The notes below the pieces were generated by a model, which was not told the DNA's origin, did not search any database, and worked only from the letters and a program-made list of their open reading frames with translations. A DNA stretch of 64,000 bases, taken from the NCBI GenBank assembly GCA_036924085.1, contig JAVGWX010000019.1, positions 21,304,293 to 21,368,292 on the forward strand, read 5' to 3'. The stretch is from Ariolimax columbianus (Eukaryota; Mollusca; Gastropoda; Stylommatophora; Arionidae). The translations under genes and the position numbers were made by a program. Position 1 is the first letter of the stretch. Each line of letters begins with the position of its first letter. Below, in pieces: positions 2,989 through 59,899 of the stretch.

Positions 2989-4054
2989 TTTACAGACTAT
3001 GCTCGTTAAACTTACTTAATTAGCTGGATCTGATTTCTTTCCTCTTTTGAATAATGGAATCACTCCTGCATCTTTCCAATCTCTTGGAACAATCCATTTT
3101 GCAAGTGATTGAGAAAATAATATAGCCAATGGTTTTACTAGTTAGTCTATTCTTCAAATAGCATTGATGAATGGATACCGTCTTGATCTGTACATTTATC
3201 CACTTTTAATCCTTACAATCTTTTTTAGAACCATTTCCTCCGTAATACAGAATGATTTTAATCGCACTATATCCATTTGACATTTGAAAATATGTATAGG
3301 CTCTGGTATCTTGGAGGAGTCTTCTTTTGTATAGACTGTGCCAAAGTATCGATTTATGAGATTAGCTATCTCCCGATTTTCTCTGCTTATTGTCACTGTA
3401 CTGCCTATGAGAAAGCCTACCTTGTCTTTATGTCTTTGTTTATTTCTAACATTAGAAAAGAAGCTTTTATCATCAGTCTTGATCCTATTAGTAAGTTTTT
3501 TTCGAAGTCTATTTTTGCTGCTTTATTTATTTTCTGAGCTATGTTTTGCTTGTCCAAATATTTTAAATATATTTCTTTTGATTTACTTGCCTGTATATAC
3601 TTTGTCCAGGCTTTATTTTTAGCTCTTATACATTTAGCTACAAATCTAGTTATCCACTTTTTTATGATTGGTGTTTACCTCCATACATAGAACATATTCG
3701 ACTTTTAGTTGTTCTAAAAGTGTTTTGAAACACTCTCCCTCTTGTTCAACGTCTGTACCTTTGACAATATCTTTCCAGTTTATGTGGCCTGTCTGTATCT
3801 TTCATCTTCTGTACATCTGTCTTAGAGTAGTCGTATGCTCGCGAGTGTATATTTACATTTCTCCTTGCTATACGATCCCAAAGGATGATCTGATGGTCGC
3901 TTGAGCCAAACAGTTCCCCAAAGGATAAAGTTTTCAATCATATTTGTCTATGTAGCAAATATTAGGTCGAGTAAGTTTTTGCCTCTGGTAGCTTCCTCTA
4001 CATGATAAATCAATACAATTATCACTTCACAAAAGGATTAAACTTTGCAAATGC

Positions 4055-4690: not shown

Positions 4691-5010
4691 ATGTCCTTGT
4701 GGGACTCCTTGTTACATTTTCATCTTTTTGTTGAGTTGTCCTTTGAGTTGCACTCTTGCTGTCCTGTTATCTAGATAATCACTGATCCTTCTTCTTCTTC
4801 TTACGCTGTCAGACGTCAACCTTATAAACCTGTATTAAGTCACCACGAATTCTTCTCTCTTCTAGACACTGTAGGCCGGTTTTTCCTCATAACTGTAATT
4901 CTGGAATCCCACTATCAGCGTTGTCGCTCTTTTTTGTAATCTTTCCAGCATCTTTGTATCCCCTCTATGATAAGGACTCCACCCCTGTATACATAACTCC
5001 AACCTAGGTC
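4691..5010 (-). mobile_element. composite scar: G2 scrap, LINE 3' tip, second C1-like scrap
   Basis: Four bases (ATGT) at 4691-4694 mark the deletion of 2433 bp that unit 2 keeps. Bases 4695-4793 are the remaining reverse transcriptase edge of the G2 LINE (YLDNRTARVQLKGQL in element sense). A (TTC)4 run with a LINE 3' tip follows at about 4790-4835. From 4836 a second CR1-like C-terminal fragment (MLERLQKRATTLIVGFQ) runs to 5010, where private copy A cuts it. Units 2 and 3 show the uncut version. Confidence 0.75.
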
Positions 5011-7088
5011 TTCTTCTTCTTCTTCTGCGTACACAGTCAGACAGTAACCATTATTTTTTCGAAAAAAGCGGCGGTCATCCTGAGACTCTCGCCACTACCA
5101 TAGAGCTTGTCTTGCAGTTCCACTGGCAATGGCCACATCTGCTCTCTCTGATCCTCGTATGTCGGGCAGTTCTGCAGCAGATGTTCAGTGGTCATTTTAC
5201 CAGTACCGCACGGGCATTCGTCGGTACACCCTATCTTCAATTTGTTGAAGAGGTGGTACCGACCTGCTCTCTTCGGTTCAACTGGTAATAGGCATCGTTT
5301 TTGGTGTAACCAGTATGTTCGGTTTCCCATTTGGTCATGTATCTGGCTTTGATAAGCCGTTTTGACTCTTCGTACGTCATACTGGTATCTGTTTGTGGTA
5401 GCCTTGCACCTTCTTTTGCCAGTCTGTCTGCCTCCTCGTTGCCTTGGATGTTGCAGTGTGACGGAACCTACTGTACCACTACCCTTTTTGGTGCGGACTG
5501 CTGGCACAGTTTTCAGAGTGCTGCTCTTAAGTCATTAAGCTCAGTGTTTTTCTGGCTTTTTAGCGCTGTGACTACGGCGAGATCATCTGTCAGCAGGACT
5601 ATATGGCTCTCATTTTCACTGTGTGTTACCATTTCTTCCACTGCCGCCCTCAGTGCCTCTGCCTCTGCTCTGAAATTGCTTGTGTACTTACCAGTAGCGA
5701 ATGACAGTGTTATTTTTCTGCCATTTGGTAGGTTCAGGAATGCTCCTGCCCCTCCGTTCTGTGTAGTGTTTGTTACAGAACCGTCGGTGTATGCATGGGT
5801 CCAGTCCATGCTTGGGTAGCTTTTCGTTATGAAGCTTAGGGTAGTGTCTCTCCTTTCTTTTTCAGTCTGGCAGTTTTTGTTTGCAATACCTGGTATATTT
5901 TCTACCACCTCTGGAAATATATCCTGCCTCCAAGTAGGTTTTCGTACAGTAGTGATGGGTTTTGGTGTTGTTAGTGCGTTTATGGGATCTTCGTGCATCT
6001 TTGCTTTGGCTATTTCTGCAAAGTTTCTCCGCTTTAGTTTCCCAGTTCCCAAATTGTTTAGCCTCTGGTACATTGGATGGTCCGTCAGTCTTCGGAGTTT
6101 CTCTGACTGCAGCTGGGCTCTGCAGTCTCTTCTGTCGGTCATGGATTGCAGTTTTGTAATCTTTTCAAGTTCTACAATTGGCGTTGACTTCATGCCACCT
6201 GTTATGATTCTCATGGCTTGGTTTTGAAGTTTGTTAACTTTATCGAAGTTCGCCTTCGCTGCTGTTGTCCATGCCGCGATGCCATACTCGAGAACTGGTC
6301 TCACTCTTCCAGTGTACAGTTTCTTTAGTATGCCTTCGTCTGCTCCCCAGCTTGTGTCAGCAAGTTTCCTCATGATCGCCATTCTTTCTCTGGCTTTCAT
6401 TCGGTTTCTCTCAATCTGACTTTTCCATGTCATGCGCCGATCAAATGTGACTCCCAGATAGGTTGGGTTGTCGTTTGGCTGCAGGATTTTGCCATTTAGG
6501 CTTAGTTTGGTACTTTGGGGTTTTAATGAGAGCGAGAATATTGTGCACGTGGTTTTCTCCTCGTTTATTTTGACCAGCCATGAGTTCGCCCACTCTTCCA
6601 GCGATGTTAGGGCCGTTTGCATCCGATTTCTTGCTATGGTGAGATTCTTTTCAGAGGTCCACATAGCCAGATCGTCTGCAAACATTGAGCTATGGACTCT
6701 TCTTGGTATATTCTCTGTAATATCGTTTATATATACCAGGAAGAGTGTGGGTGACAGTACTCCCCCTTGGGGTACTCCCTGCTCGAGTGTCACCTTTTTG
6801 CTCATCTGCCCTTGTACTTGGACTCTGGCCGTTCTTTGTTTGAGGTAGTGGTTGATCCACTTGTACATCTTCCCACAAACATCACTTCTTCTTAGCTTGA
6901 CTCTAAGTCCATCCTTCCAGACTTTGTCAAATGCCTTTTCCAGATCCACCCAAACAGCTACTGTGTGTTTCTGTGCCTGGTAGGCATCTTCTATCTCCTG
7001 GGCTATGAGGATGACCTGGTCCTCAGTGGATCTGTGCTGTCTAAAGCCGGCTTGCTGTGGAATTAGTATTCGTTTTTCTTCCAGATGC
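5011..7088 (-). mobile_element. G1 LINE copy A, 5'-truncated, private to unit 1
   Basis: A minus-strand 3' half of a G1 LINE. Its (GAA)n end abuts GGTC at 5010; in units 2 and 3 this base is followed by TAACTAATG. The 5' truncation falls in the reverse transcriptase at 7088, joined to G3 sequence with a few bases of shared sequence (CAC). Compared with unit 2, 593 bp of target (34033-34625) are missing, and no target duplication was seen. Sequence is very close to copy B, but copy A has a 37-bp deletion near 5261 that shifts the frame in the C-terminal region. Confidence 0.9.
5037..5512 (-). pseudogene. G1 RNase H end and zinc-knuckle tail (copy A)
   Basis: Continuation of the copy A frame after the TGA. 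It reaches a second stop, a TAG in place of a Trp or Arg codon just before VPSHCNIQGNEEADRLAKEG. That block includes the last RNase H Asp. A 37-bp deletion then shifts the frame. The tail still reads CPCGTGKMTTEHLLQNCP, a C-x-C-x7-H-x4-C zinc-knuckle-like motif typical of such LINE C-termini, and ends at TGA 5037-5039. Confidence 0.75.
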
Positions 7089-7126
7089 CACCTGGTCTCG
7101 CCTGGAGAGTTGATGGTAGACATCAT
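5513..7126 (-). CDS. G1 reverse transcriptase / RNase H fragment (copy A)
   Basis: A 537-codon open frame with most of a LINE reverse transcriptase and the first part of an RNase H. Reverse transcriptase motifs: WVDLEKAFDKV, GVPQGGVLSPTLFLVYIND, and FADD at residues 149-152. RNase H: Asp448 (YTDGS), Glu488 (RAEAEAL) and Asp514 (LLTDDLA). Its product would copy LINE RNA into DNA. The first dozen codons (MMSTINSPGE) lie beyond the element edge, in the neighbouring G3 scrap read out of frame, so the start is an accident of insertion. Endonuclease and ORF1 are missing and a TGA at 5513-5515 ends the frame before the last RNase H motif. Expression is unlikely. Confidence 0.75.
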   Translation of the reverse strand: MMSTINSPGETRWHLEEKRILIPQQAGFRQHRSTEDQVILIAQEIEDAYQAQKHTVAVWVDLEKAFDKVWKDGLRVKLRRSDVCGKMYKWINHYLKQRTARVQVQGQMSKKVTLEQGVPQGGVLSPTLFLVYINDITENIPRRVHSSMFADDLAMWTSEKNLTIARNRMQTALTSLEEWANSWLVKINEEKTTCTIFSLSLKPQSTKLSLNGKILQPNDNPTYLGVTFDRRMTWKSQIERNRMKARERMAIMRKLADTSWGADEGILKKLYTGRVRPVLEYGIAAWTTAAKANFDKVNKLQNQAMRIITGGMKSTPIVELEKITKLQSMTDRRDCRAQLQSEKLRRLTDHPMYQRLNNLGTGKLKRRNFAEIAKAKMHEDPINALTTPKPITTVRKPTWRQDIFPEVVENIPGIANKNCQTEKERRDTTLSFITKSYPSMDWTHAYTDGSVTNTTQNGGAGAFLNLPNGRKITLSFATGKYTSNFRAEAEALRAAVEEMVTHSENESHIVLLTDDLAVVTALKSQKNTELNDLRAAL

Positions 7127-11965: not shown

Positions 11966-11994
11966 TTCTTCTTCTTCTTCTTCTGCGTACACAG

Positions 11995-12795
11995 TCAGAC
12001 AGTAACCATTATTTTTTCGAAAAAAGCGGCGGTCATCCTGAGACTCTCGCCACTACCATAGAGCTTGTCTTGCAGTTCCATTGGCAATGGCCACATCTGC
12101 TCTCTCCGATCCTCGTATGTCGGGCAGTTCTGCAGCAGATGTTCAGTGGTCATTTTACCAGTACCGCACGGGCATTCGTCGGTACACCCTATCTTCAATT
12201 TGTTGAATAGGTGGTACCTCAGTCTGTTGTGGCCAGTGCGAAGTCTGAAGACAACGACCTGCTCTCTTCGGTTCAACTGGTAATAGGCATCGTTTTTGGT
12301 GTAACCAGTATGTTCGGTTTCCCATTTGGTCATGTATCTGGCTTTGATAAGCCGTTTTGACTCTTCGTACGTCATACTGGTATCTGTTTGTGGTAGCCTT
12401 GCACCTTCTTTTGCCAGTCTGTCTGCCTCCTCGTTGCCTTGGATGTTGCAGTGTGACGGAACCTACTGTACCACTACCCTTTTTGGTGCGGACTGCTGGC
12501 ACAGTTTTCAGAGTGCTGCTCTTAAGTCATTAAGCTCAGTGTTTTTCTGGCTTTTTAGCGCTGTGACTACGGCGAGATCATCTGTCAGCAGGACTATATG
12601 GCTCTCATTTTCACTGTGTGTTACCATTTCTTCCACTGCCGCCCTCAGTGCCTCTGCCTCCGCTCTGAAATTGCTTGTGTACTTACCAGTAGCGAATGAC
12701 AGTGTTATTTTTCTGCCATTTGGTAGGTTCAGGAATGCTCCTGCCCCTCCGTTCTGTGTAGTGTTTGTTACAGAACCATCGGTGTATGCATGGGT
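11995..12795 (-). pseudogene. G1 ORF2 C-terminus: RNase H and zinc knuckle (copy B)
   Basis: The same frame as ORF2, cut off by TAG 12796-12798. It holds an RNase H (YTDGS, RAEAEAL, LLTDDLA, GNEEADRL) that would remove the RNA strand from the hybrid. A CPCGTGKMTTEHLLQNCP zinc-knuckle-like motif follows (C-x-C-x7-H-x4-C), then an ending at TGA 11995-11997. Two more in-frame stops, TGA 12508-12510 and TAG 12463-12465, are shared with copy A. Without the three stops the ORF2 frame would be 1305 codons, and no frameshift is needed. Confidence 0.85.
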
Positions 12796-15700
12796 CTAGT
12801 CCATGCTTGGGTAGCTTTTCGTTATGAAGCTTAGGGTAGTGTCTCTCCTTTCTTTTTCAGTCTGGCAGTTTTTGTTTGCAATACCTGGTATATTTTCTAC
12901 CACCTCTGGAAATATATCCTGCCTCCAAGTAGGTTTTCGTACAGTAGTGATGGGTTTTGGTGTTGTTAGTGCGTTTATGGGATCTTCGTGCATCTTTGCT
13001 TTGGCTATTTCTGCAAAGTTTCTCCGCTTTAGTTTCCCATTTCCCAGATTGTTTAGTCCCTGGTACATTGGATGGTCCGTCAGTCTTCGGAGTTTCTCTG
13101 ACTGCAGCTGGGCTCTGCAGTCTCTTCTATCGGTCATGGATTGCAGTTTTGTAATCTTTTCAAGTTCTACAATTGGCGTTGACTTCATGCCACCTGTTAT
13201 AATTCTCATGGCTTGGTTTTGAAGTTTGTTAACTTTATCGAAGTTCGCCTTCGCTGCTGTTGTCCATGCCGCAATGCCATACTCGAGAACTGGTCTCACT
13301 CTTCCAGTGTACAGTTTCTTTAGTATGCCTTCGTCTGCTCCCCAGCTTGTGCCAGCAAGTTTCCTCATGATCGCCATTCTTTCTCTGGCTTTCATTCGGT
13401 TTCTCTCAATCTGACTTTTCCATGTCATGCGCCGATCAAATGTGACTCCCAGATAGGTTGGGTTGTCGTTTGGCTGCAGGATTTTGCCATTTAGACTTAA
13501 TTTGGTACTTTGGGGTTTTAATGAGAGCGAGAATATTGTGCACGTGGTTTTCTCCTCGTTTATTTTGACCAGCCATGAGTTCGCCCACTCTTCCAGCGAT
13601 GTTAGGGCCGTCTGCATCCGATTTCTTGCTATGGTGAGATTCTTTTCAGAGGTCCACATAGCCAGATCGTCTGCAAACATTGAGCTATGGACTCTTCTTG
13701 GTATATTCTCTGTAATGTCGTTTATATATACCAGGAAGAGTGTGGGTGACAATACTCCCCCTTGGGGTACTCCCTGCTCGAGTGTCACCTTTTTGCTCAT
13801 CTGCCCTTGTACTTGGACTCTGGCCGTTCTTTGTTTGAGGTAGTGGTTGATCCACTTGTACATCTTCCCACAGACATCACTTCTTCTTAGCTTGACTCTA
13901 AGTCCATCTTTCCAGACTTTGTCAAATGCCTTTTCCAGATCCACCCAAACAGCTACTGTGTGTTTCTGTGCCAGGTAGGCATCTTCTATCTCCTGGGCTA
14001 TGAGGATGACCTGGTCCTCAGTGGATCTGTGCTGTCTAAAGCCGGCTTGCTGTGGAATTAGTATTCGTTTTTCTTCCAGATGCCACATCAGTCTGGTGTT
14101 TATCATCCGTTGCATCAGCTTGCCGACACAGCTCAGTAGGCTGATGGGCCTGTATCCATTTGGATCTGTTTTATCCTTTCCTGTTTTTGGTACTGGTACC
14201 AGTATTGCATCTTTCCATGCCGGGGGTACAATACCCCTTTTCCAGCTTTGGTTCAGGACTGACAGTAGTTTCCTCTTCGCTGTTTGGCCCAGCCCCATCA
14301 GCATTTCGTTTGTTATCCCATCTTTTCCGGGAGATTTCCTTTTCTTTAGTGTTCTCATAGCCTCTTCCATTTCGCGCATTGTAAGTTTGGCCATCATGTG
14401 CTCTTCGGGAGCCGTATTTATGTTTTCGTGTCCCTTTAGCTCTTCGCTAATGTCTGTATGCTTTTCTGCAGGGACCTCGATGTGGTTTGCTCTGGCATAG
14501 TGATCGACAAAGGCGTTTGCGGCTTTCTTACCTGTGATCAAGTTCTCGCCCTGCTTGATAGTAATTTGTTTATTTGACGGGGTTTCGTCGTTCATGGCTC
14601 TGACTAGCTTCCATAGCTTGTTCCCGTCTTTGTCCAGGTTTAGACTTTCCGTTTTATCTTTCCAGCTTTCTCTTGCTGTTTGTTTGAGAGTGTGTTTGTA
14701 TTTCGCCGCAGCGGCTTTGAGGGCGATGTTTGCCTCCATGGATTTTTCTCGCTCTGCCATGTTCCTAGCATTTGTTACTGCATCTTCCACTTTCTGCAAC
14801 TCATCATTCCAGTAGGGCTTATAGTTTTTCCTAGCTCCTCTTGGGATGGTTTCAGGGGCGGCTTGCATTATTGCCTTGCTTAGGCTCTCTACCATGGGCT
14901 TCATTTTGGTGTTTCGTGTGTTGATGGTTTCACACAGCCCATCTGTCAGGATTGCAAATCTGTCCCAGTCGGCTCGTTTGTAATTCCAACGTGGGAGCGG
15001 TTTTGTTTCCTGTGGGCCTACTTCCATGTCAATGGTTAGCCCGATCGGCCTGTGGTCGCTACCTGCCAGTTGGTTTAGCACCTGGCGGTCTATTTTATGG
15101 TGTATGTCCTGTGTGGAGAATGCCAAATCTAGAGTCGAGGTGGTATGCCATGTTCTTGAATAGAAGCTAGGGCTATCCTCCGGCCTATTGATTAGGGAGA
15201 GATTTGCATCTATCTCCCAATCTTCCACTTCGTCACCTCTGCTGTCTGTGTCAGAGTATCCCCATCTCTCCGAGTGGCTGTTGAAATCTCCAACTACTAT
15301 GCAGTTGGAGTCTCTGACCTCCATACTCGAGAGCGATAGGTCTCTGTTTGGTGGTCCGTACAGATTGAAAATGCGGAGCTTTGTCTCTTGAGCCATTATG
15401 TCCACTCCTACAATTTCTGCTTGTCCGGTGTGATTGACAGATACCGCGCTACTCGGTATGCAGTTTCTGGTCAGTATCAGGACCCCTCCTTTGTGGCCTT
15501 CTCTATCTAGACGGAAGGTCTGATATCCTCTGATTGAGAATTTATGGTTATTGTTGAGGTGCGTTTCCTGGATACATGCCACGTCAATCTTACCTTCATG
15601 CAGGTGGTGTGTTAGGGAAAGTTTTTTGTTAATGACTCCCTCCGCATTCCACTGTAGTATTTTGAGGGTCTTGAGGTTTTGGCCAATAGACGTTGCCCCA

Positions 15701-15912
15701 TAGCCATGTGCCTTGACTTCACGACACATGGGTGGGTGACCACCAGTAGTCAAGGGTGGGCCCCTTCGAGGCGTGAGGCCCGGCACTATCGCTGCCTGGC
15801 GGGACTCCGCAGGATGAGCGCCATACGTTTTTCTATTAGGTTGTACTGCCATCATACTGTGATTTACGTTGCACTGTTTTGTTAGGTTGCGGCCCCGTGC
15901 ATCCGATTTCAA
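12796..15912 (-). CDS. G1 ORF2: endonuclease and reverse transcriptase (copy B)
   Basis: A 1038-codon frame. APE-type endonuclease at about residues 83-290: Asn89 (LQWNAEG), Glu116 (CIQETH), Asp209/Asn211 (VVGDFNSH) and SDH at 285-287, all key residues present. Reverse transcriptase at about 525-800: KSPGKDGI, NGYRPISLLS, Asp658 (WVDLEKAFD), GVPQGGVLSPTLFLVYIND, and FADD at 746-749. The product would nick target DNA and copy LINE RNA in place. The frame ends at TAG 12796-12798, where copy A has TGG (Trp) just before the RNase H motif YTDGS. The frame then continues open apart from two more stops. The Met at 15912 may not be the true start, since residues 1-80 look like linker. An endonuclease this intact suggests fairly recent insertion. 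Confidence 0.85.
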   Translation of the reverse strand: MKSDARGRNLTKQCNVNHSMMAVQPNRKTYGAHPAESRQAAIVPGLTPRRGPPLTTGGHPPMCREVKAHGYGATSIGQNLKTLKILQWNAEGVINKKLSLTHHLHEGKIDVACIQETHLNNNHKFSIRGYQTFRLDREGHKGGVLILTRNCIPSSAVSVNHTGQAEIVGVDIMAQETKLRIFNLYGPPNRDLSLSSMEVRDSNCIVVGDFNSHSERWGYSDTDSRGDEVEDWEIDANLSLINRPEDSPSFYSRTWHTTSTLDLAFSTQDIHHKIDRQVLNQLAGSDHRPIGLTIDMEVGPQETKPLPRWNYKRADWDRFAILTDGLCETINTRNTKMKPMVESLSKAIMQAAPETIPRGARKNYKPYWNDELQKVEDAVTNARNMAEREKSMEANIALKAAAAKYKHTLKQTARESWKDKTESLNLDKDGNKLWKLVRAMNDETPSNKQITIKQGENLITGKKAANAFVDHYARANHIEVPAEKHTDISEELKGHENINTAPEEHMMAKLTMREMEEAMRTLKKRKSPGKDGITNEMLMGLGQTAKRKLLSVLNQSWKRGIVPPAWKDAILVPVPKTGKDKTDPNGYRPISLLSCVGKLMQRMINTRLMWHLEEKRILIPQQAGFRQHRSTEDQVILIAQEIEDAYLAQKHTVAVWVDLEKAFDKVWKDGLRVKLRRSDVCGKMYKWINHYLKQRTARVQVQGQMSKKVTLEQGVPQGGVLSPTLFLVYINDITENIPRRVHSSMFADDLAMWTSEKNLTIARNRMQTALTSLEEWANSWLVKINEEKTTCTIFSLSLKPQSTKLSLNGKILQPNDNPTYLGVTFDRRMTWKSQIERNRMKARERMAIMRKLAGTSWGADEGILKKLYTGRVRPVLEYGIAAWTTAAKANFDKVNKLQNQAMRIITGGMKSTPIVELEKITKLQSMTDRRDCRAQLQSEKLRRLTDHPMYQGLNNLGNGKLKRRNFAEIAKAKMHEDPINALTTPKPITTVRKPTWRQDIFPEVVENIPGIANKNCQTEKERRDTTLSFITKSYPSMD

Positions 15913-16049
15913 CAGGCGTTTCTGTAGGGGTGCCCTCCTTAGCCGTTGGCTGTCCCCAGCCTATCTGCAAGGCAGCAGTTGTTTACGATCAGAGTTTTCT
16001 CTCTTATGGAAGTTGTCTTACCAGACTATCGAGTCTTCACTACTCGTGT

Positions 16050-16560
16050 CTATAGGGTGCAATGATGATATGTGATGATATATGAGATGGACTGGTTTAC
16101 CCGGAAGAGAGGCAGTCCAGTGTGTCTGTGTTTCAGGATCGTCACGTCCTGCCAGGAACGTAGCATTTGCATTTGATTGGGGTATCTCTTTTTCCCTTTA
16201 TTTTCTTGGCTTCTATGCAGGGATGGTACGCCTAGCATTCCCCGCCACCTAGGGTGTTGACACAGTGGGGCAGGTGTGCAATGTCCGCTGGTCTGCATCT
16301 CTTCTGCGTCCAGTATGATAGTTATATGGCTGATAACGTACAGAGGTAGATATCGTAGCCGGAGTGCATTCAGCCAGAGGACAAGCCTGGTAATGTCACC
16401 GAGATGTTGTTCGCCTGGTGTGCGGACAACTCTCATGGTCAGTGGTTGAGTCTTGACAGTTCACAGTGAGGTGGCTGCTCTACTGTTTTCGACACCCCGA
16501 CCAGGTACTAAGTCTTTGGTTGGTGGTTTCGCACCCAATCGCCGTTTAGGGTGAGTATCA
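16050..16560 (-). pseudogene. probable decayed ORF1 (gag-like) of G1
   Basis: Upstream of ORF2, where such LINEs carry ORF1. One frame is open for 128 codons (16436-16050) but does not look like a protein. In the neighbouring frame, near 16185-16290, one can read HCVNTLGGGEC, then AYHPCIEAKKIKGK after a stop. This resembles the last CCHC zinc knuckle and lysine-rich end of LINE gag proteins, broken by stops and small indels. The call rests on position and a weak motif. It could equally be untranslated leader. Confidence 0.35.
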
Positions 16561-16565
16561 AGCAG

Positions 16566-16645
16566 TTGTCCGCCCGCTTTGATTGGCGGGCGGCAAGGAC
16601 CTCTTACTGTGGCTCTACCTGATAGGGCTGGGGCGCAAGCCCCAG
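16566..16645. other. two strong hairpins in the G1 leader
   Basis: CCGCCCGC at 16570-16577 pairs perfectly with GCGGGCGG at 16586-16593. CTGGGGC-GCAA-GCCCCAG at 16628-16645 is a 7-bp stem with a four-base loop. Both are GC-rich in a moderate-GC context, so the leader RNA is probably structured. No ribozyme fold was identified. Confidence 0.6.
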
Positions 16646-16866
16646 GTCCCGAGCATGTAAGAGCCTCCCATTGCAGTGGTGCTGAGATTTTAGGCGGGAT
16701 TGCGGCTTACAAGGGTTCGGCCGTAATCCCCCACATGGTAGCCTCGCGCCCTTGGCTTATCAGCCTGGTACGTGAACCAAAGTGTCTGCGGCTCCTCTCG
16801 ATTTGAGCTGGTTTTCCGTAGCAACGCCCTGTCATTTGTAGGGTAAAACTGACCTGTCTTCAGAGA

Positions 16867-17482
16867 ATCTATTTCCAGCACCCGTTCACTATTTAGTCAG
16901 ACGAATTTATTGAGGGCTTTTGTTTGTCAATGACCAGGTATTTGAAATCTGCGGTTTCTGCGGAGTTAAACACGATTTCCGTAGCGTTCTTTCATTTGAG
17001 TGTTTGAGAGCTGACTTGTCATCCGTGAGTCTAATACCAGCGTACGTTCATTATTAGACCCAAACGGCAGTGCTCACGATTTGTCAGTTGTTCTACAGTA
17101 TTGGCGTGTTCAGTCAAATTAAGCCGCAGGTTCCACACCTGGTGGTGCCCTTCCGTCAATTCCCTTAGCGAGACAATCAAGTTTCTTAGGGGGTAGTCCC
17201 AGATTTTTGAGGGTCTAATTCCAGCACATGTTCTCTATTAGACCCCACGAAGGTGTACTTTTTGATAGTCATTCTGCAGTATTGGCGTGTTTAGTTAACT
17301 TAGGTCTCAGGCTCCACTCCTGATAGTGCTCTTCCGTCAATTCCTTTATCAAACACTGGATGCAGACAAAACCGGGCCACAGGGGGCATAACCCCAGATT
17401 TCTGGGGGTCTAAGTCCAGCACCAGTTACATATTAGACCCCAGAAAAGTGGTCTCGGCATGTCAATCATTTCAGTGTTGGCA
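16867..17482 (-). repeat. G1 5' tandem monomers with 18S-derived cores
   Basis: Monomers start at about 17029, 17213 and 17408 (spacing 184 and 195 bp), with a partial fourth near 16867-16905. Each opens on the plus strand with GTCTAAT-CCAGCA and closes a hairpin with ATTAGACCC; the third copy has a stem of about 12 bp. Each then has about 60 bp of TATTGGC-type linker. Copies two and one end in about 62 bp matching 18S rRNA (17106-17168 and 17287-17350, including CCGTCAATTCC). The third leads straight into long 18S at 17483. The cores have diverged from each other and from 18S, so they are older than this insertion. Confidence 0.8.
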
Positions 17483-17504
17483 GTGTTGAGTCAAATTAAG
17501 CCGC

Positions 17505-17542
<38 letters not shown>

Positions 17543-18508
17543 CAAGTTTCAGCTTTGCAACCATACTTCCCCCGGAACCCAAACACTTTGGTTTCCCGGA
17601 AGCTGCCCGCAGAGTCATCGAAGCAACTCCTGCGGATCGCTAGTCGGCATCGTTTATGGTCAGAACTACGACGGTATCTGATCGTCTTCGCGCCTCTGAC
17701 TTTCGTTCTTGATTAATGAAAACATTCTTGACAAATGCTTTCGCAGTAGCTCGTCTTACGGCGATCCAAGAATTTCACCTCTAACGCCGCAATACGAATG
17801 CCCCCGTTTGTCCCTGTTAATCATTACCTCCAGTTCCGAAAACTAACAAAATAGAACCGAGGTCCTATTCCATTATTCCATGCACCATTATTCAGGCAGC
17901 CGAGGCCTGCTTTGAACACTCTAATTTTTTCAAAGTAAACGCGCCGGCCACATAGGACGCTCAGCGAAGAGCACCCGTGGGAGAGAACCAACAGACGGTA
18001 GGGCAGGAAACAACGGGCAGTGAACCGGCGCGAGCCGGACCGCCCGCCTGCGCCTGAGATCCAACTACGAGCTTTTTAACTGCAACAACTTTAATATACG
18101 CTATTGGAGCTGGAATTACCGCGGCTGCTGGCACCAGACTTGCCCTCCAATAGATCCTCGTTAAAGGGTTTAAAGTGTACTCATTCAAATTACGGGGCCT
18201 CGAAAGAGTCCCGTATTGTTATTTTTCGTCACTACCTCCCCGTGCCGGGAGTGGGTAAGTTGCGCGCCTGCTGCCTTCCTTGGATGTGGTAGCCGTTTCT
18301 CATGCTCTCTCTCCGGAATCGAACCCTGATTCCCCGTTACCCGTTACAAACATGGTAGGCATGTCACGTACCATCGACATTTGATAGGGCAGACATTTGA
18401 AAGATGCGTCGCCGGCACATGAGGCCATGCGATCAGCACAAAGTTATCCAGAGTCACCAGTGGGGACGCCGTACCCCGCGAGGGGAAACGACGATTGGTT
18501 TTGAACTA
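17483..18508 (-). rRNA. partial 18S rRNA gene (about 1.0 kb, pseudogene)
   Basis: The plus strand is the reverse complement of a eukaryotic 18S rRNA. Landmarks: CCGTCAATTCCTT at about 17530, GAATTTCACCTCTAACGCCG at 17771-17790, ACCGCGGCTGCTGGCACCAG at 18118-18137 (530 loop), and the GC-rich V4 insert at 17940-18060. It spans roughly 18S bases 165-1190 of about 1800 (estimate from memory). The high-coordinate end is lost at AATAATATCTTAC, which also fits the satellite. The other end stops after ACTCAACAC in rRNA sense, exactly where LINE monomers begin. It lies in the same sense as LINE copy B. It is truncated at both ends, so it is not a working rRNA gene. The V4 region looks molluscan. Confidence 0.9.
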
Positions 18509-18842
18509 ATAATATCTTACTATCCACATGTCAACAGGCCAACACAGAGCTTGAATGTCCTACAGAGTATTTTACTATCCACATGCCAACAGGCCAACAC
18601 ATAGCTTGAATGTCCTACATAGTATCTTACTATCCACATGTCAACACATAGCTTGAATGTCCTACAGAGTATCTTACTATTCACAAGTCAACTGGCCAAC
18701 ACAGAGCTTGAATGCCGTACATAATATCTTACTATCCACATGTTAACAGGCAGACACCAAGCTTTACTGTTAAAAATAATATCTTACTATCCACGTGTTA
18801 ACAGACCGAGAGTAAGTTTTAATGTTCTACACAATATCTTAC

Positions 18843-18898
18843 TTCTTCTTCTTCTTCAACAAATTCACGTTGATGTCTGACAGCGTACGTCGAAGAAG
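18843..18898 (+). mobile_element. 56-bp LINE 3' tip with target duplication
   Basis: Plus-strand LINE 3' end: AACAAATTCACGTTGATGTC, then TGACAGCGTACGTCGAAGAAG. It matches, in the opposite orientation, the last 45 bp of G1 copies (214-260). It is flanked by ATATCTTAC at 18834-18842 and 18899-18907, a 9-bp target-site duplication. It is an extremely 5'-truncated insertion and is repeated in all units, so it predates their duplication. Confidence 0.85.
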
Positions 18899-19174
18899 AT
18901 ATCTTACTGTACCCATGTCATCAGCCCGACTCTGAGCTTTGCTATCCTACATGATATTGTACAATTCACATGTTTTAATGTCATTCATAGTATTTTACAG
19001 TCTCCATGTCAACAGACCAACACCAAGCTGTAATGTCCTAATATCAAATCTTTCTTTCTAAATGTTAACAGACCCAATATCAAGCTGTAATGTACTACAT
19101 AAAATTTTACTATCTAAATGTTAACAGACCGATGCTATTCGCTAATATCCTAAATATTATCTTACTGTCACCAT

Positions 19175-19430
19175 GGGGACGGTGTGGCCTAGTGGTTAAG
19201 TGGCACGGCTCAAAACCCGAAGGTGCTGGGTTAAATCCCCATCACAACACCGGCCGCTACCCCGGGGAAGCGAATCCTTAGAAAATGCAAGAGGAAGCAG
19301 ACCCTTACATAAAATGCATGCTGAAGTTGGAAGCACTTGGCCGACAGGCGCAAAATAAAAACCCGAGTACAATGTACACCACTTAGGGGATTAGAGAAAT
19401 AAGGCGAACTCAAAAAAAACAAAAAAACAA
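19175..19430 (+). mobile_element. tRNA-derived SINE
   Basis: The head has a tRNA-like internal promoter: a box A region (GTGGCCTAGTGGTTAAGTGG) and box B (GGGTTAAATCC here, GGGTTCAATCC in the other units). A central region unrelated to tRNA follows, then an A-rich end. It is flanked by CTGTCACCAT at 19165-19174 and 19431-19440, a perfect 10-bp target duplication inside a satellite monomer. RNA polymerase III would have transcribed it and a LINE would have moved it. The box B of this copy is mutated. SINEs with tRNA heads are common in molluscs. Confidence 0.9.
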
Positions 19431-26794: not shown

Positions 26795-27606
26795 CTTCCT
26801 CTTCTTCTTCTTCTTCTTCTTACGCTGTCAGCCGTTAACTTGAATTTGTTCGAAGAAAGCAGCTGTCACCCTGAGGCTGTCGACACTGCCATAGAGCTTG
26901 TCTAGTGCTGCCACTGGTGATGGCCACATCTGCTCTCTCTGATCCTCGTATGTCGGGCAGTTTAGCAGCAAATGCTCAGCGGTCCTTTTCCCTGTACCAC
27001 ACGAGCATTCGCCAGTGCCCCGTCTTCAATTTGTTGAATAGGTGGTACCTCCGTCTATTGTGGCCAGTCTGAAGACCACGACCTGCTCTCTTCTGTTCAA
27101 CTGGTAATAGACATCGTTTTTTGTGTAGCCAATATGTTCTGTTTCCCATTTGGTCCTGTATCTAGCTATAATAAGCCGTTTTGACTCTTCGTATGTCATA
27201 CTAGTATCTGGTTGTGATAGTCTTGCACCCTCTTTTGCCAGTCTGTCTGCATCCATATACCTGTACATTTTTCTAGATACTTCAATTCTTCGTAGCTTGA
27301 CTTTATGTCCCTCTTTCCCCACCTTGTCAAATGCCTTCTCTAGATCCACCCAAACCGCCACTGTATGCTTTTTCTCCTGGTAAGCATCGTCTATTTCCTG
27401 CGCTATGAGAGTGATCTGATCCTCAGTGGATCTGTGTTGTCTAAATCCTGCCTTCTGTGAATTAATATGTGTTTTTCTTCCAGGTACCACATTAGTCTGG
27501 TGTTTATCATACGCTCCATCAGTTTACCTACACACCTCAGAAGACTGGTAGGCCTGTATCCATTTGGATCTGTTCTATCTTTTTCTTTCTTTGGTACTGG
27601 TATTCG
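26795..27606 (-). pseudogene. G1 LINE, internally deleted copy (unit 2 version)
   Basis: Equivalent to 214-1012 in unit 1, but complete to its own long GAA tail (TTC run at about 26798-26820). It has the same in-frame reverse transcriptase to RNase H junction (YRYMDADRLAKEG). The open stretch is 154 codons (27490-27026); a one-base loss near 27463 alters the start compared with units 1 and 3. Confidence 0.85.
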
Positions 27607-38946: not shown

Positions 38947-39849
38947 TTTTATACTCCACAGGCGATAAGAGGGAGACTAGAACATAAGGGAACTACGTTT
39001 TGAACTCTCCCAGTTTTACCACTATAATCGCTCAACAATTTATATAATTTACAGAGCGACACTATGCATTCATGTCTGAAATAGTATCTTACTATCCACA
39101 TGTTAACAAACTGACCCTAGACATTACAGTTCTAACTAGTATCTTACTATCCATATTTTAACAAACTGACCCTAGACATTACAGTTCTAACTAGTATCTT
39201 ACTATCCATATTTTAACAAACTGACCCTAGGCATTACAGTTCTAACTAGTATCTTACTATGCACATGTTAACAAACTGACCCTAGACATTACAGTTCTAA
39301 CTAGTATCTTACTATCCATATTTTAACAAACTTACCCTAGGCATTACAGTCCTAGCTAGTAACTTACTATGCTACATCAAGTTTTAATGTCCTATATATA
39401 GTATTTTACTATCCACAGATTATCATACCAGCATTAAATTTTGATGTCCTACACAGTATCTACCTAAGCACATGGTAACAGTCTTTTATATAATACATTC
39501 TTATATGAATATTAACATACAGACAATAAACGGTATTGGTCTATAAAGTATCGCACTATCCCCATTAAACAGATGTTCACTGACTCGAAACTTTACAGTC
39601 CTACATTGTAATTTGCTATCTATATATTAACAGACCAATACCAAGTTTTATTGTTCTTCAAAGTATTGTACAATCCCAATGCCATCAGACTGTCTGAGAG
39701 CTTTAATGTCTTACACAGGATCTTACAATCCACACATTAACAAACCAACTCTAGATTCAATGCACTGCACAGTATCCACTACCCAGATGTTAGACTTACC
39801 CAAAACATTGATATCCTACATAGTTCTTTAATGCCACCATGTTAATAGG

Positions 39850-58075: not shown

Positions 58076-59899
58076 AACGTAGGTTAGGTTCTTGATTTTG
58101 TACCATAGCGGTATTTTAACCCTTCCTATCTATTTTTTATACTCCACAGGCGATAAGAGGGAGACTAGAACATGAGGGAACTACGTTTTGAACTCTCCCA
58201 GTTTTACCACTATAATCGCTCAGCAATTTATATAATGTACAGAGCGACACTATGCATTCATGTCTGAAATAGTATCTTACTATCCACATGTTAACAAACT
58301 GACCCTAGACATTACAGTTCTAACTAGTATCTTACTATCCATATTTTAACAAACTTACCCTAGGCATTACAGTCCTAGCTAGTAACTTACTATGCTACAT
58401 CAAGTTTTAATGTCCTATATATAGTATTTTACTATCCACAGATTATCATACCAGCATTAAATTTTGATGTCCTACACAGTATCTACCTAAGCACATGGTA
58501 ACAGTCTTTTATATAATACGTTCTTATATGAATATTAACATACAGACAATAAACGGTATTGGTCTATAAAGTATCGCACTATCCCCATTAAACAGATGTT
58601 CACTGACTCGAAACTTTACAGTCCTTCATTGTAATTTGCTATCTATATATTAACAGACCAATACCAAGTTTTATTGTTCTTCAAAGTATTGTACAATCCC
58701 AATGCCATCAGACTGTCTGAGAGCTTTAATGTCTTACACAGGATCTTACAATCCACACATTAACAAACCAACTCTAGATTCAATGCACTGCACAGTATCC
58801 ACTATCCAGATGTTAGACTTACCCAAAACATTGATATCCTACATAGTTCTTTAATGCCACCATGTTAATAGGCCAACACAGAGCTTGAATGTCTCACAGA
58901 GTATCTTACTATCCACATGTTAACAGGCCCAGACAGAGCTTGAATGTCATACAGAGTATCTTACTATCCACATGTTAACAGGCCAAGACAGAGCTTGAAT
59001 GTCTCACAGAGTATCTTACTATCCACATGTCAACAGGCCAAGACAGAGCTTGAATGTCATACAGAGTATCTTACTATTCACATGTCAACAGGCCAAGACA
59101 GAGCTTGAATGTCTCACAGAGTATCTTACTATCCACATGTCAACAGGCCAAGACAGAGCTTGAATGTCATACAGAGTATCTTACTATCCACATGTCAACA
59201 GGCCAAGACAGAGCTTGAATGTCATACAGAGTATCTTACTATTCACATGTTAACAGGCCAACACAGAGCTTGAATGTCATACAGAGTATCTTACTATCCA
59301 CATGTCAACAGGCCAAGACAGAGCTTGAATGTCTCACAGAGTATCTTACTATCCACATGTCAACAGGCCAAGACAGAGCTTGAATGTCATACAGAGTATC
59401 TCACTATTCACATGTTAACAGGCCAACACAGAGCTTGAATGTCCTACAGAGTATCTTACTATACACATGACAACAGGCAAACACATAGCTTGATTGTCCT
59501 ACAGAGTATCTTACTATCCACATGTCAACAGGCCAACACAGAGCTTGAATGTCCTACAGAGTATCTTACTATCCACATGACAACAGGCCAACACATAGCT
59601 TGAATGTCCTACAGAGTATCTTACTATCCACATGTCAACAGGCCAACACATAGCTTGAATGTCCTACAGAGTATCTTACTATCCACATGTCAACAGGCCA
59701 ACACAGAGCTTGAATGTCCTACAGAGTATCTTACTATTCACAAGTCAACTGGCCAACACAGAGCTTGAATGCCGTACATAATATCTTACTATCCACATGT
59801 TAACAGGCAGACACCAAGCTTTACTGTTAAAAATAATATCTTACTATCCACGTGTTAACAGACCGAGAGTAAGTTTTAATGTTCTACACAATATCTTAC

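Follow-up and report, generated by a model that had tools for sequence, protein, structure and literature searches.

How did a retrotransposon come to be fused, at its 5' side, to part of a ribosomal RNA (rRNA) gene? This question is raised by a 64,000-nucleotide stretch of the Ariolimax columbianus genome (contig JAVGWX010000019.1, positions 21,304,293 to 21,368,292), the whole of which is called the window in what follows. Its minus strand reads as sense 18S rRNA from 18508 to 17483 (Rfam small-subunit match, E = 1e-209) and then, collinearly, as a long interspersed nuclear element (LINE) ending in (GAA)6 at 11983 to 11966. The two sequences meet at ...ACTCAACAC, at 18S nt 1238. The first-pass annotation, made from the letters of the window, had described LINE, 5' monomers and 18S as collinear and in the same sense, which is how the minus strand reads from 18508 to 11966. 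It had also noted an empty site in the satellite that surrounds the element, and the 200-bp left flank is indeed repeated at 97.5% identity, with no match to the element, at 39437-39636 and 58460-58659. We propose here, with a probability of roughly 0.87, that a LINE encoding an apurinic/apyrimidinic-type (APE) endonuclease, a reverse transcriptase (RT) and RNase H, together with a short non-autonomous partner, would live in 18S genes, be co-transcribed with them by RNA polymerase I (Pol I), keep the rRNA leader and insert throughout the genome.

Dispersed copies and their rRNA leader

The window junction (17400-18508, 1109 bp) was used as a query, and 40 of 1985 first-look candidates were scored. 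These 40 matches lie on 18 contigs, nearly all of them full length at 98-100% identity; one is the window itself and another (L002) duplicates that locus, flank included, at 99.4% identity. None is on contigs C50 or C67. These two contigs are arrays of rRNA genes (rDNA), since a 400-bp spacer query gave matches only there (40 scored of 141 candidates, all at 100%, 24 on C50 and 16 on C67), often spaced by about 12.2 kb. Insertions of the element are thus not confined to rDNA.

Of the other 38 junction matches, 20 were fetched in full. Their flanks mostly differ, and many have their own target-site duplications (TSDs). Eleven copies are autonomous and are called type A (L009, L010, L012-L014, L021-L025 and L027); they measure about 7.4 kb with a full leader and about 5.5 kb without it, and a further copy of type A, L011, is broken up by other sequence. 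The remaining eight (L015-L020, L026 and L028), called type B, are non-autonomous and about 3.5 kb long. They have the same leader, a related 5' untranslated region (UTR) and a (GAA)n tail, with little beyond 5' UTR and tail, and the copy examined for reading frames (L015) is without a long LINE frame. GAA-repeat 3' tails end all 11 type A and all eight type B copies. Of the 13 genomic cases with a TSD, 12 have one of 8 to 14 bp and the other has one of 6 bp, and the target sites are weakly A/T-rich. The window copy is therefore a 5'-truncated member of a dispersed family. It is real, as the annotation had it, but the picture of one insertion in a satellite has to be widened to a genome-wide family with a non-autonomous partner.

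The end of the 18S at 18508 was considered as a meaningful boundary and rejected, as other copies read on: in the first six (L003-L008) the 18S runs past this point through nt 1 into the 5' external transcribed spacer (5'ETS). This bears out the suggestion that the 5' part of the 18S was lost from the window copy by truncation. The leader of the fetched copies consists of the 5' part of 18S and about 610-640 nt of 5'ETS, about 1.85 kb in all, and in 15 of the 20 it starts at one nucleotide, (A)TCTGGGG. Among these 15, a small deletion lies just 3' of the start in L009, and the ETS of L020 contains an insertion; in L021 another ETS piece precedes the start, and in L028 the start is the inner one, inside 18S. 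Starts placed evenly along the leader would not be expected to cluster in this way, in a test that treats copies as independent.

In two C50 units the spacer lies directly upstream of this start (...GGAATGTATATT(A)TCTGGGG), and in a C67 unit the same nucleotide follows the spacer, while the array promoter is absent upstream of the dispersed copies read. From this we take (A)TCTGGGG to be the probable Pol I start, although a processing site very near it may be marked instead. The annotation had envisaged an RNA reading from 18S through into the LINE. The read-through fits our data, but its start would be the 5' end of the pre-rRNA and not a point within 18S.

We then compared the fetched leaders, all 20 except those of L020 and L022, with a real rDNA unit from C50. 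The 18S part differs at 21 of 22,282 positions (99.91% match), and the ETS part at 144 of 9,807, with 0-40 gap positions per copy in addition. Among the 11 type A copies (10 for the ETS), median pairwise differences are 0.32% in 18S, 1.55% in the ETS, 2.5% in the 5' UTR and 1.8% in the open reading frame (ORF). Judged by its 18S, with 12 mismatches in 1026 positions, the window copy is older than the sampled copies.

Residence in 18S genes

Three C67 array units with unusual spacing were checked; two of them were readable, one only in part, and one carries the element. This unit reads, unbroken, through the promoter (454/454), the 5'ETS (608/608) and 18S nt 1-1240 into the LINE, with 18S identities of 99.8% over nt 1-937 and 100% over nt 938-1240 and a junction at ...ACTCAACACGG|CCAACACTGAAATG. 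Within the body, 601 bp match type A at 97.8%. The annotation had predicted that this LINE lives in 18S genes and that it would be found joined to 18S at ACTCAACAC in a full rDNA unit; both predictions are borne out by this single C67 unit. As in R elements, a copy thus sits in an rRNA gene within an rDNA array (one C67 unit). The resident was also considered as the direct parent of the sampled copies and rejected, given its differences of at least 1.2% in coding sequence and 5% in the 5' UTR, and is best regarded, from its sequence, as one member of a resident class. Unit spacing is ambiguous as to its 3' boundary: the excess is 6.4 kb for a LINE of about 5.5 kb, and unit length varies by about 1 kb. 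Unit spacing on C50 and C67 varies generally, with some gaps about 4-6 kb over the norm and some 966 bp short, which suggests other inserts and spacer length variants.

Further junctions were found with a query from 18S nt 1239-1396, the part missing from the leader. Of 394 candidates 40 were scored, and 12 of these were read along with L028. Two (L029 and L030) belong to the arrays and are intact as far as they were read, which leaves 11 non-array loci. In seven of them (L028, L031, L032, L034, L035, L036 and L039) an element is joined at 18S nt 1396. In L037 and L033 the join is at nt 1670 and nt 1739, respectively, and L038 runs through 18S, the first internal transcribed spacer (ITS1) and 5.8S until, within the last few dozen bases, a truncated leader with LINE follows (5.8S/ITS2 region). 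No junction was found in the part of L040 that was read. The elements joined at nt 1396 begin either at the full start (three copies) or at one of four different truncation points. Because five different element 5' ends occur there, at least five separate insertions hit this nucleotide.

Eight of these 11 loci again have their outer 5' end at the start nucleotide. This end lies within 2 nt of that position in L031, is truncated in L035 and was not found in L040. Whole composites are bracketed by TSDs in L034 (GCATCTTCAACC), L028 (in satellite), L032 and L037, and probably in L031; for L039, two stretches were searched for the tail and neither contained it. Taken together, junctions lie at nt 1238 (resident and leaders), at nt 1396 (repeatedly, with a TSD) and, in single cases, at nt 1670, at nt 1739 and in the 5.8S/ITS2 region. 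The 18S insertion point given by the annotation holds as far as the nt 1238 junction is concerned, and at least two positions in 18S are used.

A reciprocal 3' junction was also predicted, with (GAA)n joined to the rest of 18S. One place with (GAA)n close to 18S nt 1400 came up in a pattern search, namely L072, which reads LINE, (GAA)6, ATAGTTCGCC, 18S nt 1386-1848, ITS1, a second LINE 3' piece, (GAA)5 and flank, and is 5'-truncated within the first LINE piece. This 3' junction, taken with the 5' junction after ...AATAGTTCGCC, gives a TSD of 10-12 bp in 18S, of the size seen at dispersed sites. The predicted junction thus exists, but was found once only, at nt ~1386 rather than nt 1238 and in a dispersed locus rather than in an array. 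On the simplest reading, L072 would derive from an RNA that ran from one LINE through the remaining 18S and ITS1, continued into a second LINE and was copied from the tail of the latter.

Common flanks were also observed. L010 and L019, 12 kb apart on contig C9, have an identical 5' junction and 5' flank and bodies of type A and type B, respectively. Likewise, one satellite flank carries the first-order copies L015 and L016 (C27) and a second-order copy, L028/L043 (C38). The latter case points to recombination between two ETS-18S repeats, with collapse as the outcome.

Origin of the leader

As far as sequence can establish it, the element resides in an 18S gene (one unit), its copies have a common 5' end and a retained leader, and they were inserted, with TSDs, in a manner resembling target-primed reverse transcription. 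The same holds for the second 18S site with its TSD, for the conservation of the leader relative to the diverged bodies, and for the production of copies from truncated and ORF-less elements joined to rRNA. The 5' ends and leaders of the copies further argue strongly for co-transcription with rRNA.

The mechanism we propose would run as follows. Types A and B would both reside in 18S genes of rDNA arrays, type B presumably being mobilised in trans. Pol I would start at the normal pre-rRNA start, pass through the 5'ETS and 18S and enter the element, which would need no promoter of its own. The RNA would run from ATCTGGGG through 18S into the LINE and retain the rRNA leader of about 1.85 kb. Reverse transcription from the (GAA)n tail would then take place at weakly A/T-rich sites across the genome, mostly with TSDs of 6-14 bp. 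Where it was complete, it would give copies starting at the Pol I start, and where incomplete, copies like that of the window. The dispersed copies, presumably inactive, would probably be dead ends unless they landed in rDNA.

Several observations weigh against this proposal. Five of the 20 copies start elsewhere in the leader, at position 18 (L017), 222 (L010 and L019), 260 (L013) or 688 (L022). No clear TSD was found for L010, L013, L021, L025 and L027 or for the composite L036, L022 is a doubtful case, and L031 has a flank that is a short repeat itself. In addition, some copies are not independent (L015/L016/L028 have a common satellite flank and L010/L019 a common 5' flank), and because L015/L016 and L010/L019 share flanks there were fewer independent events than copies. 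In the arrays, a single resident was seen, read at its 5' junction, and a second odd-spaced C67 unit is intact across nt 1238 over its readable part; no type B resident was seen in the array units read. All copies compared with the resident differ from it by at least 1.2% in a 601-bp coding piece and by at least 5%, gaps included, in a 698-bp 5' UTR piece. Finally, the array ETS (608 nt) is about 1.5%, plus 0-40 gap positions, off the leaders, and the source units are therefore not the assembled ones.

Alternatively, the LINE could once have gained ETS and 18S as a 5' UTR and spread from dispersed copies ever since, perhaps from a promoter inside the leader. The leaders that reach the junction share it at nt 1238 in both types, as a single capture would have it, and older pieces of 18S and 28S within the 5' UTR make it clear that rRNA can join the element. 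However, leader and body travelling together would have made the 18S as diverged as the body, whereas the leader 18S is 0.09% from the living 18S and the bodies differ by a median of 1.8%. The resident behind an array promoter also speaks against a single capture, as do the second-order copies, which bear an extra outer ETS-18S extending to nt 1396, 1670 or 1739, mostly with the same start. We therefore regard such a capture as improbable.

We give a slightly lower probability still to template switching, in which the reverse transcriptase would have jumped from LINE RNA onto free pre-rRNA. Pre-rRNA is abundant, and the 28S-like piece in the 5' UTR reaches model position 3399/3401, at the extreme 3' end of 28S, as expected of an old jump. 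Such jumps do not agree with repeated junctions at one 18S nucleotide, where five different element ends occur, with the reciprocal (GAA)n-18S junction and its 10-12-bp duplication, or with the resident in an array unit. On these three grounds template switching was rejected as the main cause, and for nt 1238 and nt 1396 it is largely refuted. Lastly, an assembly error or a chance juxtaposition at 17483, a possibility raised by the annotation, is of negligible probability and was rejected, given 40 scored junction matches on 18 contigs and 20 copies read with mostly different flanks and many TSDs of their own.

Mobilisation of rDNA residents with their leader thus remains the reading that we prefer. 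A stronger form of it, to which we give about even odds, would define the LINE family by its source rather than its target: the element would insert across the 2.3-Gb genome, only copies in rRNA genes would be transcribed, by Pol I, and all dispersed copies, as offspring of rDNA residents, would be dead on arrival. If so, any resident with a (GAA)n tail, even a 5'-truncated or ORF-less one, would be mobilised with the pre-rRNA upstream of it, and pre-rRNA retrocopies would be scattered through the genome. The retained leader, being identical to 18S, could then guide re-insertion into 18S by homology.

Features of the window and known systems

The features of the window copy are collected in Table 1. 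The annotation's claim of a LINE with APE endonuclease and RNase H is confirmed by Pfam domains, the RNase H lying in a separate frame.

Table 1. Parts of the LINE copy in the window, listed 5' to 3' on the minus strand.
Feature	Position	Strand	Evidence
18S rRNA, sense, about nt 210-1238; LINE 5' end adjoins at 17483; 5'-truncated in satellite at 18508	17483..18508	-	12/1026 mismatches to real rDNA unit
LINE 5' UTR with monomers, 3' of rRNA leader	15961..17482	-	pieces 74-91% similar to type B (measured in L014, L015)
Diverged copy of 18S nt 1177-1239 in 5' UTR monomer	17286..17348	-	85.7% identity in L014; window position by offset; repeat family D4
Second diverged 18S piece, nt 1177-1247, in 5' UTR monomer	17104..17174	-	90.1% identity in L014; window position by offset; repeat family D4
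28S 3'-end-like stretch in LINE 5' UTR	16428..16830	-	Rfam RF02543, 67.6 bits, model 3005-3399/3401; 61.3 bits in local search
ORF with APE-type endonuclease and RT, 1054 aa stop to stop	12796..15960	-	Pfam PF03372/PF14529, PF00078; homologs
RNase H domain, separate frame in window copy	12508..12795	-	Pfam PF00075, 2.4e-08
C-terminal coding remnant with presumed Cys/His motif	11995..12462	-	motif by eye; no Pfam match
(GAA)6 3' tail	11966..11983	-	sequence

The motif in the C-terminal remnant is one that we take to be of the Cys/His kind. In the 5' UTR of L014 the two diverged 18S pieces both begin at nt 1177, while L015 has one (88.9%); the 28S 3'-end-like stretch is also present in L014 and was not reported for the type B copy L015. 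Because these diverged 18S pieces and the 28S-like stretch sit in the 5' UTR, rRNA probably entered the element at earlier times. The pieces that begin at nt 1177 might go back to an old, long TSD or to tandem insertions that collapsed.

Elsewhere in the window, a second copy of the same LINE, 5'-truncated and with an internal gap of about 36 bp, is about 99% identical to the last ~2.1 kb (5009-7091, minus strand), and the 3' end of a related, diverged LINE (84.5%) lies at 26800-27254 (minus strand). By eye, a short piece in the satellite between TTC and GAA repeats (18842-18901) has a GACAGCGTACG motif resembling the LINE tail, and a similar inverted tail is present at the 5' end of L017. Also by eye, positions ~19174-19400 look like a tRNA-derived short interspersed element (GGTGTGGCCTAGTGGTTAAG...GGGTTAAATCCCC).

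Judged by domain content only, the order APE endonuclease, RT, RNase H is that of an APE-type LINE of the I group. Among the 120 homologs listed for the ORF, the best, of about 1280 aa, carry APE, RT and RNase H, and those named come from the gastropods Batillaria, Littorina and Bradybaena. A search of sequences with solved structures, which returned LINE-1 ORF2p, other RTs and one endonuclease, that of TRAS1 (presumably R1 clade), was uninformative as to clade. The endonuclease of R2 is restriction-like, whereas an APE domain is found here. Elements that insert in 18S include R7.

Among the systems known from rDNA, R1 offers a close parallel for a retained leader. According to PMC2718515, full-length Drosophila R1 copies of the melanogaster type found outside rDNA keep 7-28 bp of 28S, from which transcription through the host rRNA gene was inferred, and R1 has been suggested to have its own promoter. 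Both elements are thus LINEs resident in rRNA genes whose RNA would carry upstream rRNA, a piece of which is kept outside rDNA. They differ in that R1 keeps 7-28 bp of 28S, whereas here about 1.85 kb of ETS and 18S is kept, from the presumed Pol I start, and the host gene is 18S (PMC2718515).

R2, for its part, is regarded as co-transcribed with its host rRNA gene and as lacking a promoter of its own (PMC2718515, PMC5035012 and PMC3414825), which is also what we propose for the present element. However, its ribozyme cuts off the rRNA and it uses one 28S site, whereas our element is APE-type, keeps its leader and inserts genome-wide. No ribozyme family is among the matches that Rfam gave for the window, L014 and L015. 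R8, an element of the R2 lineage, inserts in 18S (PMC5035012). Our element resembles R7 and R8 in its 18S insertion and differs by having APE, RT and RNase H where R8 belongs to the R2 lineage.

Other parallels concern dispersal and partners. The non-site-specific R2-like elements of Blattella germanica (PMC7650587) are likewise relatives of an rDNA element that have spread randomly in the genome; they are, however, R2-related, and the terms "rRNA sequence" and "outside the rDNA" are absent from the text of that paper. The Ingi/Nimbus LINEs (PMC11203168) are non-LTR elements present in many gastropods, the group from which the named homologs of our ORF come, but "18S" is absent from the text of that source. 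The internally deleted non-autonomous R2 and R1 elements described in PMC3414825 are short partners of an autonomous rDNA element, as is type B, which differs in keeping 5' UTR, rRNA leader and (GAA)n tail. In the open-access literature, with most subscription papers outside coverage, we found no report of a LINE family with 5'ETS and 18S.

If read in this way, the dispersed copies record the whole 5' part of their template RNA, down to a single start nucleotide. They would thereby chart, in nature, where Pol I presumably starts, which rRNA genes were transcribed although they carried an insert, and where in 18S insertions took place. They also offer a testable case in which RNA made by Pol I would act as both message and template of a LINE. 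The family may moreover supply rRNA pseudogenes, which could interfere with 18S assemblies and with metabarcoding. Overall, the element shares the way of life of R elements, yet it retains the 5' part of its transcript and is mostly dispersed.

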